Positions 1 to 7,192 of a stretch of 7,192 nt of DNA are shown here, one piece after another. The stretch comes from a bacterium. Its GTDB lineage: Bacteria; CSSED10-310; JAJRTK01. Every line of letters begins with the position of its first letter. Within the stretch, counting starts at the first letter, position 1. The stretch lies in contig JAJRTK010000519.1 in assembly GCA_024278345.1 (NCBI GenBank), positions 1 through 7,192 of the forward strand, written 5' to 3'. Below the pieces are notes generated by a model. That model was given only the letters and a program-made list of their open reading frames with translations, had not been told where the DNA came from and made no database searches. The position numbers and the translations under genes are program-made.

Positions 1-609
1 TCTTTTAGGGCGGAGTTGTCGGAAAACCCTCTGTTTTCTTCGTGTTGCGTCCCGCTCACATCGGCGGCAGTCCGTCCGCCGCTGTTCGCCATCATCGCCG
101 CTCTCACTCTCCACTGCCCTAAGGCCGAAGCACCACCTGGTTTTTGGGGGTGTTCCGGTTGGGGAATCCACCTCAAGAGCATCCCGCAATCCCCGTTTCC
201 AACCAGCTTCGTAGCCATCGAGCTAGATCAGGAGCTGTCCGATCCATTGGATGAATCCAGGCAGAGACTCCCGCGCTGGGCAGCGTTGGCGCAGCGAGCT
301 TTCAGGCCCATGGTGCAATCACGCCCCGCGGAGACGATGAGCTCGGCATTTGCCCGGGTGCAGAAACCGGGTATGCACTTACCATGAAAGTACATGGTTA
401 AATCCATCTTCGATGGCGTGGTTATGGCGCTCGGCGCCATTCACTTTCATCTTCCGGGGGGGACCTATCAAATCCCCGCGTTTTTGCTTTACACTCCGCG
501 GCACCGCCCTGGTGGCACCGCCATCTTGCCGGTGGCGGGCTGGACGGGATTCACGGAATTGAACGGTGGGTTCCTTTCATGCGTGGACTTGTCAACCGGA
601 TCTGAGGGT
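1..609. other. No convincing gene; short inverted repeats
   Basis: I see no supportable gene on either strand in this stretch. The + strand frame is open from position 1 to a stop at 385-387, so the tail of a gene entering from the left cannot be excluded, but it shows no recognisable motif, is rich in Pro, Ser, Cys and Arg, and lacks a Shine-Dalgarno site at its internal starts. Small perfect inverted repeats occur: 381-386 with 392-397 (6-bp stem, 5-base loop), 424-430 with 434-440 (7-bp stem, 3-base loop) and 519-524 with 533-538 (6-bp stem). A 9-bp direct repeat (ggcaccgcc) lies at 500-508 and 514-522. The stretch is best read as intergenic or decayed accessory DNA. Confidence 0.5.
424..440. 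repeat. Perfect 7-bp hairpin with 3-base loop
   Basis: The bases atggcgc at 424-430 and gcgccat at 434-440 are perfect reverse complements around the loop tcg. No T-run follows it, so it is not a Rho-independent terminator. A second stem (accatg/catggt, 381-397) lies 27 bases upstream. The two may be part of one folded repeat unit, but the function is unknown. Confidence 0.45.
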
Positions 610-1333: not shown

Positions 1334-1852
1334 ATGAGCTCATTTTTTGGCTTGCGATCACGCGGGCCAGCGCTGGGAGGCCAGGTGTGGAAATGTCTGG
1401 CTGGAACCGAAAGAGGCGGTTGTTTTGAGGGGAAGACGGCGGCGCCTGGCCAGGCGGGTCTGAGCTTGGTGGAAGTGCTGGTGGCCATGACAATCTTCGC
1501 CGTGGGAATGATGGGCGTCTTGCAGATGTTTCTGGTGGCCACGGTTCGGGTCCGGATCCAGCAGGACAAAGAACTTGCCTACGAAGTTCTGGTTTCGGAG
1601 GCGGAGAGGATTGACGGAACGCCTTACGAGGATCTCGTTCCGGGGAATTTCACTACCCGGATGGTGACGAGCGGAGGCCAGGTTTTTTTCGTCTCTTTCG
1701 ATGTGGATCAAGGGGATGACGACACGACCTTGGAGAATGGAGAAGAGCTGGACTACTACCTCCGGCGGGTTACGGTGACGGTGGAGTGGCGGAGCTTGAG
1801 TCAGTTTGTGGGGCGCATCGAGTCGGTGAAGCTGCAAATGCGGACGACGTAG
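1334..1852 (+). CDS. PilV/GspI-like minor prepilin
   Basis: This 172-aa protein is a type IV prepilin of the PilV/GspI class. It would be cut by prepilin peptidase (PilD), N-methylated and inserted as a minor subunit of the pilus or pseudopilus at the inner membrane. The class III signal is clear: a leader ending G42, then LSLVEVLVAM, with Glu at +5 (E47), followed by a hydrophobic helix to about residue 65. The amphipathic helix after it and the closing beta strands (for example RVTVTVEW) fit the family, as does the length. An acidic stretch at about 123-141 (DVDQGDDD and following) is notable. The leader of 42 residues is much longer than the usual 5-10. The start is set by the Shine-Dalgarno site at 1322-1327; starting at GTG 1274 would lengthen the leader to 62. 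It is the first gene of the operon, 72 bases before the next. The PilV/GspI assignment rests on motif resemblance only. Confidence 0.85.
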   Translation: MSSFFGLRSRGPALGGQVWKCLAGTERGGCFEGKTAAPGQAGLSLVEVLVAMTIFAVGMMGVLQMFLVATVRVRIQQDKELAYEVLVSEAERIDGTPYEDLVPGNFTTRMVTSGGQVFFVSFDVDQGDDDTTLENGEELDYYLRRVTVTVEWRSLSQFVGRIESVKLQMRTT

Positions 1853-4126: not shown

Positions 4127-4340
4127 GCAAGCGACGAAAACAGCATTGATGGCAAGGGAGCGGGGCGATGGGAGGCGGATGGCAGTCGGCCGGATGGCCG
4201 CTGACAGGAGCGGACTCCAACAGAGAGGAAACAAAGCCTTCCACGGTTCTCATGCCCTTGGCCCGTCCCACCATCCAGTTTTTTGATCGCCAATGGGCGC
4301 CGCCTTCCCGGTGTTCCCTATCTACCACGGAGCAAAGCCA
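4127..4340 (+). other. 214-base gap inside the operon
   Basis: This gap separates the PilX-like gene from the DUF4388-like gene, while the following genes are tightly packed. It holds a small stem, cggcc (4187-4191) with ggccg (4196-4200), and no terminator-like T-run after it. A + strand reading frame at 4168-4383 overlaps the next gene and shows no known motif, so I do not call it. An in-frame stop at 4284-4286 bars any further 5' extension of the next gene beyond ATG 4293. A second promoter here is possible but not seen. Confidence 0.4.
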
Positions 4341-5741
4341 ATGGCCGGCCTCCATGAAGACGGTATCCGGCGGGATTTTTTGAGCCACCTCGCCATGGTC
4401 AGCGAACATGGCCTGTCGGGAAACCTCGTCTACGAACAGAAAAGTGGCATGGAACGCCACCTTGAGTTTTTTTTCCACCGGGGCCAACTCCTCTATGCCA
4501 CGTCAAAGGCCCCGGGCGAGCGTTTGGGGGAGTTCCTGGCCCGGCGTGGAACCATCGGAGAGAAGGATTTGCCACGCTTCCTGGCCGAAGCGAGGAGATA
4601 CGAGCTCTATTTCCACGCCTATCTGGCCGAGGCGGGAATCATCGAATACGAAGAGCTGAAAGACCTTCTCTACGAGAGGACCGAAAAGCTCATCGGTTCC
4701 ATCACCAGCGAGAAGAAGACCCTGATCTTTCGTCCAGTTCAGCCAGATTCCATGGCCGGGCCTGTCTGGATCAACGAAGAGCTTTTCAGGCAGCTCCTGG
4801 AGCATCGAAACGTCTGGCCCCGGCTTTATCACAAGTTTCAGGAAGAAGAGATCACCCTTCGCGCCTCCGAAGAGGCTTGCCTCAACCCCGCTTACTTCAC
4901 CCTGGGAACAAAAGAACAGCGATTACTGCACCTGCTTCAGAAGCCGACGGAGGTGTCCCGTCTCTGTCGCGGCCGGAAGGACCGCTTCCAATTGATGCTT
5001 CTTCTTGAGCGCCTTCTGGATTCAAAGCTCCTGGTCATCCAGTCTCCAAACCGCGAGACCGTTGGAGGCTTCAGACTGAATTCCGCGCCGGGAATCGTGG
5101 CGAGACAAGCTGGTGCGCGTCTCCAAAAACGGCGGAGAGAGCCGTACCCGGGAGAAGTGCTCCTTTCCCGCGATGATTCCGGATCAAAGACCTCCACCGG
5201 ATCCCCGCGCCCACCACGGCAAACGACCGGCGAAGCTGTTTTTGGCCACAGGGTAGGCAGCAACTCTTTTTCGGTGGTTGACAACCTCAGCACGTGGATG
5301 AAAGAAAGGTCTGGGAGCGGGCGCTCCCGCGCCAGAATCTTCGGCGGCATCGTGCTTCTCCTTGGAATGGTGCTCCTTCCGTTATGGTGGTACGCCTATC
5401 CTCCATTCGGGCAAACGAAGCAGCAGTCCCGTGCCGAACCGACGGTGCCGAAGACCGGGGTTGTGGAACCACCTGAGCAGGAAGAGTTTACAGGGCTCGT
5501 GGCGAACCAGCCTGAGGAATCCGATGACCAGTTTGAACCGGACTGGGAACCGGCGGAAGGTGACTGGAGTGACGCCGAGGAGAATACCGGCGAAGAGAGA
5601 GACGAATCCAAAGCCGTGATGGCGCCATCTTCCAGGGTCGTCGTCGAAGGTCGCGAGGTGCGGTTGGAAAACTTGGCCTGGACGCCAAACGGATGGCGGC
5701 GCCGGCGGGCAACCGAACAAAGAGGCAGAAGGGAGAAGTAA
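4341..5741 (+). CDS. DUF4388/PATAN-like protein with one membrane segment
   Basis: This 466-aa protein starts with a DUF4388 (PATAN)-like region at about residues 25-129: GLSGNLVYEQ, then LEFFFHRGQLLYATS, then a helical part with paired 'G-x-I' turns (RRGTIGEKDL, AEAGIIEYEELKDLLYE). The hydrophobic strand followed by xGQLLYA is typical of the family. A winged-helix-like helical part follows at about 188-235 (TKEQRLLHLLQKPTEVSRLC). A basic, Pro/Ser-rich linker leads to one membrane helix at about 333-353 (IFGGIVLLLGMVLLPLWWY). The remaining 110 residues are acidic and end in a short basic tail; by the positive-inside rule they should be periplasmic. PATAN proteins act in signalling to type IV pili, and its place between pilin genes supports that role. 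ATG 4341 has GGAG 8 bases upstream; ATG 4293, in the same frame, has none, and ATG 4395 is another option. Its stop overlaps the next start (TAATG), implying translational coupling. The precise function is unknown. Confidence 0.75.
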   Translation: MAGLHEDGIRRDFLSHLAMVSEHGLSGNLVYEQKSGMERHLEFFFHRGQLLYATSKAPGERLGEFLARRGTIGEKDLPRFLAEARRYELYFHAYLAEAGIIEYEELKDLLYERTEKLIGSITSEKKTLIFRPVQPDSMAGPVWINEELFRQLLEHRNVWPRLYHKFQEEEITLRASEEACLNPAYFTLGTKEQRLLHLLQKPTEVSRLCRGRKDRFQLMLLLERLLDSKLLVIQSPNRETVGGFRLNSAPGIVARQAGARLQKRRREPYPGEVLLSRDDSGSKTSTGSPRPPRQTTGEAVFGHRVGSNSFSVVDNLSTWMKERSGSGRSRARIFGGIVLLLGMVLLPLWWYAYPPFGQTKQQSRAEPTVPKTGVVEPPEQEEFTGLVANQPEESDDQFEPDWEPAEGDWSDAEENTGEERDESKAVMAPSSRVVVEGREVRLENLAWTPNGWRRRRATEQRGRREK

Positions 5742-6409
5742 TGCGAGGTGCTCAACAGCTCTTCTTTCCCGTCGTTGACGTGCCGGAAGGCTCGTCTGGC
5801 GGCATTCTTCGCCATCGGCGTGCCGTCGGATTCACACTCCTTGAGCTGCTCATCGCCCTGGCGTTCCTGGCGATTCTGGGCACCCTCACCCTCGTGGCGA
5901 CGTCCATGATGGGAAGCCGCCTGGCGGATCTCCGAGGGGATCGGGCACGCCTCTTGTCGCTGCTGGATCGGGCTCGGTTCGGAGCGCTGACGGAAGCGAG
6001 TCAGTGGATGATGATGATCGATTGTGACCTGGGGAAGGTCGCTATCGGGCCGGATGACGGCTGGCTTGGAACCTATACGGCCCCGACGCGGGGGGTGGCC
6101 ATGCGCCGAGACTACTATTCGGGAAGCCCCGATTTTTCGGAGGCTCAGCGGCGCGATGGCGTTTTACAGGGGGTTGAGCGCGTGGCGGAGATGTCCCTTC
6201 ATCCTACCGTTCGGTTCCTCCACGATCCACCCAACGGCTATGAATGTCCCGGCTCAATTGCCTTTGCGGTGGACGCAAACATCGGTTCCTTGAGGATCTT
6301 GTGGCTGGCGGACGACTCCTTTTCCACCAGCCTATCCCGCAGCTCGCAAAAGGGCTTGGTCCGCCCCATCGTCGTTCTTCCTTCCGGGGCGGTGCATCTT
6401 GCCGAGTGA
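5741..6409 (+). CDS. GspH/FimT-like minor prepilin
   Basis: This 222-aa protein is a type IV prepilin of the GspH/FimT kind, expected to be cleaved by prepilin peptidase and built into the tip or priming complex. The signal is textbook: RRAVG30, then F31-TLLELLIAL with Glu35 at +5 and a hydrophobic helix to about residue 55. A helix rich in Arg and Leu follows (RARLLSLLDRARFGALTEAS), then a beta-rich globular domain ending in IVVLPSGAVHL, as in the family, where the last strands often carry a 'P-x-G' turn. Two cysteines, C95 and C169, could form a disulfide. Its leader of 30 residues is long. The start overlaps the stop of the previous gene in TAATG, with aagggag (5728-5734) 6 bases before it; an in-frame ATG at 5693 would add 16 residues and overlap the upstream gene further. 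The next gene begins 7 bases after the stop. Confidence 0.85.
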   Translation: MRGAQQLFFPVVDVPEGSSGGILRHRRAVGFTLLELLIALAFLAILGTLTLVATSMMGSRLADLRGDRARLLSLLDRARFGALTEASQWMMMIDCDLGKVAIGPDDGWLGTYTAPTRGVAMRRDYYSGSPDFSEAQRRDGVLQGVERVAEMSLHPTVRFLHDPPNGYECPGSIAFAVDANIGSLRILWLADDSFSTSLSRSSQKGLVRPIVVLPSGAVHLAE

Positions 6410-6416
6410 GGTCAAC

Positions 6417-7192
6417 ATGAGGGATCCAAAGACAACTCCGCGGTGGGGGCGGCGCTCTTTCTTCAGAGCTTTCGCCGAAAACAGCCAAGGATTCACGATT
6501 TTGGAGGTCTTAGTGGCCTCGGCCATCTTCTTGCTGATCATGGCGATGATGTTTTCCAGCCTCTTTTCCAACGTAAAGCGCAGCCGGCTGGGATTTCGCA
6601 AGCACGTGCTCATGAGCGGAGCGCGGCTGGCCAGGACGCGGATCACGAAAGATATCCGAGCCATGGGGGTCGATACCTACTACCACCTGACCGACAGCAA
6701 CCTGCGCCAGCCGAAGCTCCTGTGGGCGGATCCTCATCAAATCGTTTTCAACGCCGATCTCGACCCCACTCGCGGTCCCATCAACCTTGCGGAGGATCCC
6801 AACACGGTGGGAAACTCTCTCACCGGCAACCTCCTCTACGCGCCGACGAACGACTGGATCAACGGCGATCCGGAAAAAGGTGCCGAAACCATTCGGATCA
6901 GCCTGGACTGGACCGGAGAAGGCCTCATCGACGATGCCGACCTGGAAAACCTCTATTGGGTCAACTCCGGGCCCAGCCTCCCGGTGGGGGGCCTTGGACC
7001 GGAGTTCGTCACCCCCAATCCTCGGGACCTCGTCCTGGTCCGGGAGGTTTTTGGATATGATGCCACCGCCGCCAGCGACAGGAATCTCGGGCCGGTGGAG
7101 GTCGTGGCCATCGGGCTGCGCTCCTGGCTCAACAGTGCGGACGATTATCCCAACGGCACCGTGCCGCCGCCATTGTTCCAGTACTGGAACAA
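6417..7192 (+). CDS. PilW/GspJ-like minor prepilin, cut by window end
   Basis: The frame is open from ATG 6417 to the window end, giving 258 residues and no stop. The N-terminus is a clear prepilin: NSQG25, then F26-TILEVLVAS with Glu30 at +5 and a hydrophobic helix to about residue 50. The mature part follows the PilW/GspJ pattern: an Arg-rich amphipathic helix (SGARLARTRITKDIRAMG) then a beta-rich domain. PilW proteins usually carry a late 'F-x-Y-W/Y' strand; here FQYWN appears at the window edge, so most of the protein is present. A degenerate EF-hand-like loop lies at 164-175 (D164-W-T-G-E168-G-L-I171-D-D-A-D175). The leader of 25 residues is long. A Shine-Dalgarno-like tgaggt at 6407-6412 lies 4 bases before the ATG and overlaps the previous stop. 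PilW versus GspJ cannot be decided here. Confidence 0.85.
   Translation, partial: MRDPKTTPRWGRRSFFRAFAENSQGFTILEVLVASAIFLLIMAMMFSSLFSNVKRSRLGFRKHVLMSGARLARTRITKDIRAMGVDTYYHLTDSNLRQPKLLWADPHQIVFNADLDPTRGPINLAEDPNTVGNSLTGNLLYAPTNDWINGDPEKGAETIRISLDWTGEGLIDDADLENLYWVNSGPSLPVGGLGPEFVTPNPRDLVLVREVFGYDATAASDRNLGPVEVVAIGLRSWLNSADDYPNGTVPPPLFQYWN

Follow-up and report, generated by a model that had tools for sequence, protein, structure and literature searches.

A membrane-anchored PATAN/DUF4388 protein with an MshEN-type helical insertion, encoded in a minor-pilin operon

PATAN domains are reported to bind the motor ATPase PilB in Synechocystis (PMC10519157, PMC7690835). Which role may such a domain have if its gene is situated among minor-pilin genes and its product is anchored in the membrane? 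This question is raised by a gene in the window studied here (the whole stretch of 7,192 nucleotides that was analysed), which constitutes the entire contig C465 of a draft genome of 6.06 Mb (G000). An earlier note on this DNA had read the gene as a DUF4388/PATAN-like link between the cytoplasmic motor and the minor pilins.

The gene and the architecture of its product

The reading frame of the DUF4388/PATAN-type protein was confirmed (Table 1). A Shine-Dalgarno-like GGAG is situated 8 bases upstream of the ATG at 4341, whereas none is found upstream of a longer in-frame ATG at 4293. At its end, the stop codon overlaps the ATG of the GspH-like gene (TAATG, 5739-5743; TGATG in a second copy of the operon on contig C397 of the same genome), in support of the translational coupling assumed in the earlier note. 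The gap of around 214 bp to the PilX-like gene contains a dispersed repeat, such that only the GspH-like gene is tightly coupled. The repeat copy (4149-4238) has at least 40 matches in the genome; the corresponding gap on C397 contains another repeat, common to window positions 1-137. No c-di-GMP riboswitch or other RNA was found upstream of the gene, a single sub-threshold lncRNA match being due to chance, and the counts of promoters and terminators did not exceed those in shuffled sequences.

Concerning the neighbours, the position between a PilX-like and a GspH-like gene holds, the first label being given by shape and N-terminus (no family match in Pfam or NCBIfam) and the second by a match under the family cut-off. 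The end of a PilW-like protein is encoded at the beginning of contig C359 (L042:1-462), which overlaps the end of the window with 38 of 39 bases identical. C359 is probably the next contig, carrying the end of PilW; if it continues the window, its own DUF4388 gene may be situated around 3 kb beyond PilW.

Table 1. Coordinates of genes and protein regions in the window
Feature	Position	Strand	Evidence
PilV/GspI-like prepilin	1334..1852	+	N_methyl E=2.6e-7, PilV 3e-5; 79% identical to C397 copy
PilX-like large minor pilin, 733 aa	1925..4126	+	N-terminal hydrophobic segment; 79% identical to C397 copy
DUF4388/PATAN protein, membrane-anchored, 466 aa	4341..5741	+	Pfam; GGAG start; stop overlap
PATAN/DUF4388 core, first half (residues 1-60, helix and three strands)	4341..4520	+	Pfam; AF2 pLDDT ~90
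Alpha-helical insertion (residues 61-113), tandem 24-5-24 MshEN motif, degenerate ligand residues	4521..4679	+	Profile, motif, fold
Remainder of PATAN core (strand 126-132)	4680..4760	+	AF2 model
Winged-helix/RRE-like domain (residues 168-235)	4842..5045	+	VIA-align; paralogue invariants
Transmembrane helix (residues 327-352)	5319..5396	+	AF2; hydrophobic segment in C397 copy
Acidic disordered tail, presumably periplasmic	5397..5615	+	Sequence; pLDDT <50; 27% identity to C397 copy
Conserved C-terminal module (VVVEGREVRLENLAWTPNGWRRRRATEQ), last helix 449-465	5616..5738	+	51% identity to C397 copy; pLDDT 71-82; decayed C395 copy
GspH/FimT-like prepilin	5741..6409	+	Family match under cut-off; coupled; C397 copy 76% over 123 aa
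PilW/GspJ-like prepilin, runs off contig	6399..7190	+	ATG 6417 likelier than TTG 6399

In the Pfam scan, the protein matches DUF4388 (PF14332) with E=7.7e-5 and 23.2 bits, slightly below the curated cut-off of 25, and five paralogues from the same genome, homologous over the full N-terminal 240 aa, lie above it (25.3-47.8 bits), which together sustain the proposed assignment of the N-terminus. The domain is modelled with confidence (AF2, pLDDT 87 overall and mostly around 90 in the core), and its beta core (strands 27-33, 39-46, 49-55 and 126-132) is interrupted by an alpha-helical insertion (helices 62-119). A receiver domain, the absence of which had been postulated, was detected neither in the Pfam nor in the NCBIfam scans.

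The single transmembrane helix (pLDDT ~90) likewise bears out the earlier reading. A single-pass topology is predicted, presumably with N-in/C-out orientation, and the location of the tail in the periplasm is derived from this topology. Of the acidic tail that had been described, the acidic stretch following the helix was found, but the last ~40 residues are conserved and predicted to be partly folded, such that the tail is not merely acidic. A search of the PDB with the protein as single sequence returned nothing. Neither for the PATAN beta core nor for the C-terminal module was a clear PDB match obtained, which has no bearing on novelty.

A winged-helix-like domain following the PATAN core had been missed in the earlier note. 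It reaches Z-scores of 6-8 against winged-helix and RRE domains (VIA-align) and contains residues invariant across the paralogues. The protein might thus be a membrane-bound, ToxR-like transcription regulator, with the winged helix on DNA, the PATAN/MshEN part as sensor, and a tail that would read the minor pilins and so adjust expression. Besides the superposition, the additional MarR/HTH-like domain of longer paralogues points in this direction; yet the window protein has no HTH match in Pfam, the additional MarR-like domain is just the part lost from it, DUF4388 proteins in motor-gene context possess the same domain type, and RRE-like winged helices often bind peptides rather than DNA. A regulator of this kind is considered unlikely.

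The helical insertion and its ligand site

The title of the 2006 paper that described PATAN, as cited in PMC11580455, ascribes 'an alpha-helical insertion' to this domain. Sequence profile and fold together identify this insertion (residues 61-113) as an MshEN module, i.e., the N-terminal domain of PilB/MshE motors. Residues 61-84 and 90-113 fit the 24-5-24 spacing of this module exactly (RLGEFLARRGTIGEKDLPRFLAEA RRYEL YFHAYLAEAGIIEYEELKDLLYER), and the MshE-related c-di-GMP motif of NCBIfam (NF053729) matches in two stretches (E=6.9e-6, 25.8 bits, cut-off 38). No shuffle out of 20,000 came up to the tandem motif score of 23, the highest reaching 17. When 282 ORFs sampled from the genome were scored likewise, the top ten places went to DUF4388 inserts and three motor ATPases, the next score being 13. 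Against the N-termini of PilB/GspE (three of four targets from the same genome), a six-sequence profile gave an hhalign value of 94.9% with E=4.6e-8, and the 13 sequences that a profile search of the PDB returned include 12 from PilB, PilF or MshE, all matched via residues 54-111 (best E=1.3e-3).

Concerning the fold, residues 58-116 superpose on MshE (5HTL) with 1.4 A over 55 residues (Foldseek) or 2.0 A over 60 (VIA, Z 5.8), and the same insertion of the AF2 model also superposes on the N-domains of PilF and Xanthomonas PilB. Foldseek gave weak E-values, which is normal for an insert of 55 residues, and Z-scores of 5-6 for MshE are by themselves indecisive (fumarase helices reach around 4), such that profile and fold are needed jointly. 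No publication equating the PATAN insertion with MshEN was found in a literature search outside of which lie the 2006 PATAN paper and the MshEN supplement; priority is thus not established.

The MshEN ligand motif RLG...L...L..Q occurs twice in the module (PMC5013675). Seven of the 12 ligand residues are kept in the window protein (R61, L62, G63, L77, L81, L106, L110; RLG of motif I is intact), and five are replaced by A84, Y90, F91, H92, and R113 (Q32A, R38Y, L39F, G40H, Q61R). A plain c-di-GMP receptor was rejected on account of these five replacements, and, judged from the degenerate residues, classical c-di-GMP binding is unlikely. F91, H92, and R113 do not vary among the six paralogues compared, which indicates that the altered site is maintained and not decaying. 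Near-perfect motifs are found in one relative from the same genome (C312) and in three from elsewhere (L083, L085, L087), and many relatives keep the motif. The prediction is that PATAN proteins with intact motif respond to c-di-GMP, whereas degenerate ones like the window protein do not.

The invariant residues could also belong to a receptor for another ligand, in which the pocket of the pseudo-MshEN module (F-H, R113) would bind a different nucleotide or a protein partner, for instance a PilZ protein, and thereby gate the machine. That the Xanthomonas PilB N-domain matched above was solved in complex with PilZ would fit as well; F91, H92, and R113 may, however, serve packing only, and the chance of such a receptor is regarded as slight.

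Copies, paralogues and motor genes

The minor-pilin-type operon postulated from the window is present twice in the genome: contig C397 contains a second PilV-PilX-DUF4388-GspH cassette in identical order, with 58% identity in the N-terminal domain of the DUF4388 protein (see Table 1 for the pilins). This second DUF4388 protein is longer (825 aa) and still has two regions that the window copy lacks, a domain of MarR-like type and a TPR-like stretch; its membrane helix and its C-terminal end are retained as well. Comparison of both copies (Nei-Gojobori) yielded a dN of 0.145 and a dS of 1.57 for PilX (dN/dS ~0.09), 0.33 and 1.79 for the DUF4388 N-domain (~0.18), and 0.38 and 0.97 for the last 41 residues (~0.39), ratios that are rough since synonymous sites are near saturation. 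Both cassette copies are under purifying selection. A third, decayed copy of the membrane-anchored gene, with N- and C-terminal pieces and stops, is situated around position 42000 of contig C395 (L153/L154).

No copy of the cassette was found in the seven further genomes of this phylum; three genomes belonging to one family have PilX relatives, which were rejected as candidates, there being no DUF4388 gene nearby. At two loci (L061 in G006, L063 in G002), PilX-like genes for around 910-940 aa lie in conserved order beside ftsH, folP, and genes that, as judged by eye, resemble those of a diadenylate cyclase and its regulator. In the named genomes, the search with the single protein found nothing and the profile search only one distant Desulfuromonadales locus away from pilus genes; the plasmid collection contained one Thermomicrobium DUF4388 protein only. 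Among 290 relatives outside the genome, the best match of the N-terminal profile was around 1e-22. The membrane-anchored pilin-operon form has so far been found in one genome only.

With around 29 DUF4388 and 22 T2SSE-type ATPase matches, this draft genome has a rich PATAN and pilus/secretion repertoire. Among the DUF4388 loci sampled, only those of the window and of C397 adjoin such pilins, and four of the five close paralogues (N-terminal 240 aa) are situated outside pilin operons. Two of these (C439, C434) are wHTH-TPR proteins, combining HTH and TPR, and that of C359 has 712 aa. On C236 (L041:6971-9694), this DUF4388/pseudo-MshEN N-terminal module forms one protein with a MacB/FtsX-type permease, next to its ABC ATPase and membrane-fusion genes, which suggests an exporter under the control of this module. 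Given the four paralogues, the DUF4388 domain is not restricted to pili in this genome, and its minor-pilin context represents a single evolutionary event with later duplication.

Homologues away from pilus genes had been named in advance as evidence against a pilus link, and this applies in part: to the four paralogues, and to the relatives in other bacteria insofar as only one of about 30 neighbourhoods first examined lies near motor genes. The position in the pilin operon might accordingly be incidental, the gene being a member of the DUF4388 expansion that was duplicated along with its neighbours and has an unrelated regulatory role. The number of DUF4388 matches, the unrelated contexts of close paralogues, and the single lineage-specific event would agree with this, whereas the retention of tail, membrane helix, and coupling in both copies under purifying selection, as well as the absence of the C-terminal module from all but the paralogues in pilin operons and a single decayed piece, make it rather improbable.

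Concerning other bacteria, only genome G164 among the first ~30 relatives' neighbourhoods has the gene near pilus motor genes; when 288 relatives of G164 were searched, 59 gave a profile match of 1e-14 or better. In 16 of 20 fetched loci, around 4-5 kb separate a DUF4388-MshEN gene for around 400 aa from a gene of roadblock (MglB-like) type, behind which comes pilB; G164 likewise has such a gene near roadblock-pilB-pilT-pilC. The 20 loci were taken from the best matches, such that 16 of 20 is not the rate of a random sample, and the genomes are mutually related and not independent, although together with G164 they span five families. Wherever the sequence continues, pilT and pilC follow pilB; at L200, only a pilB fragment was matched. 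The four exceptions without this neighbourhood encode shorter proteins (265-284 aa), and no membrane helix was found in the DUF4388-MshEN proteins of the 20 loci. PATAN genes near mglB have been noted before (PMC4316618). The motor MshEN fold of the insertion and the pilB-pilT-pilC neighbours in another lineage strengthen the tie of PATAN-like domains to the pilus motor on which the earlier note had built.

The genome with the window itself encodes PilB, PilT, and PilC on contig C400 and type II-like clusters on C335 and C365, and thus has the machinery that an adaptor between motor and minor pilins would need. GspL has a cytoplasmic domain on the motor, a membrane helix, and a periplasmic segment, i.e., the same topology as the window protein, which might therefore be a GspL/PilN-like structural accessory of the assembly platform with no regulatory role. 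The motor-type N-domain fold of the cytoplasmic part and the location of the gene inside a pilin operon would be in line with this, but the cluster on C365 already has a GspL/PilM-looking gene (by position and size), no PilN/GspL match appeared in the Pfam and NCBIfam scans (fold libraries were sampled in part), and the periplasmic part is mostly disordered. Such an accessory is distinctly unlikely.

Proposed role and comparison with known systems

The reading favoured here, to which we give somewhat less than an even chance, is that of a membrane-tethered PATAN/pseudo-MshEN adaptor that would work at the motor or platform of a type IV pilus, or of a pilus-like machine, and would couple the motor to minor-pilin sites. 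Its cytoplasmic part (PATAN core with pseudo-MshEN module, then the winged-helix-like domain) would dock on the extension motor or the platform (PilB/PilC), perhaps by its resemblance to the motor's own N-domain or by way of shared partners. A single membrane helix would lead to the flexible acidic tail with its conserved end in the periplasm, by which the protein would be held where the co-translated minor pilins gather, such that pilus initiation by minor pilins would be coupled to motor activity. The partners (PilB, PilC, pilins) and the bridge from motor to minor pilins are proposed on the basis of topology, context, and fold, and the rival readings are not all mutually exclusive with one another.

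A more specific and rather speculative version is that of a trans-membrane pilus clutch, in which a protein with a decoy of the motor N-domain, held in the membrane and translated together with minor pilins, would have the effect that only motors at sites primed by these pilins are engaged. If true, it would constitute the first PATAN regulator that is membrane-anchored and built into a minor-pilin operon. A membrane-anchored PATAN protein in a minor-pilin operon combines known parts in a new way. The identity of the insertion with a motor-type MshEN module, conserved near motor genes elsewhere, may be the more useful and general point: it suggests concretely in which way PATAN proteins may bind the motor or have partners in common with it, and the roadblock-pilB-pilT-pilC neighbourhoods offer further systems in which the connection of PATAN and motor can be tested.

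Among known systems, the cyanobacterial PATAN-REC regulators (PixE, PixG, LsiR, PatA), likened here by description, have in common with the window protein a PATAN/DUF4388-type N-terminal domain with an alpha-helical insertion. There are, however, fundamental differences: the window protein lacks REC, in place of which it possesses a winged-helix-like domain, a membrane helix, and a tail, and its gene is situated among minor pilins. The Myxococcus proteins MXAN_3211 and MXAN_4965, also likened by description, are PATAN proteins that are uncharacterised in PMC11580455, where they are reported to co-occur with the pilus regulator SgmX. With the MshEN/GSPII N-domains of MshE, PilB, and PilF (5HTL, 8PDK, 9G1W), the insertion shares the 24-5-24 motifs and the four-helix fold, whereas it is nested in a PATAN core and has no ATPase attached; its site, with five of 12 ligand residues replaced, resembles that of the non-binding GSPII-A of PilF (PMC12002112). 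The genes of the roadblock-pilB-pilT-pilC lineage (L146, L182-L201) also belong here, as the N-terminal 240 aa that they encode are homologous to those of the window protein and contain this insertion too; unlike the window protein, their products have around 400 aa and no membrane helix, are encoded near motor genes, and possess a motif II closer to the consensus.
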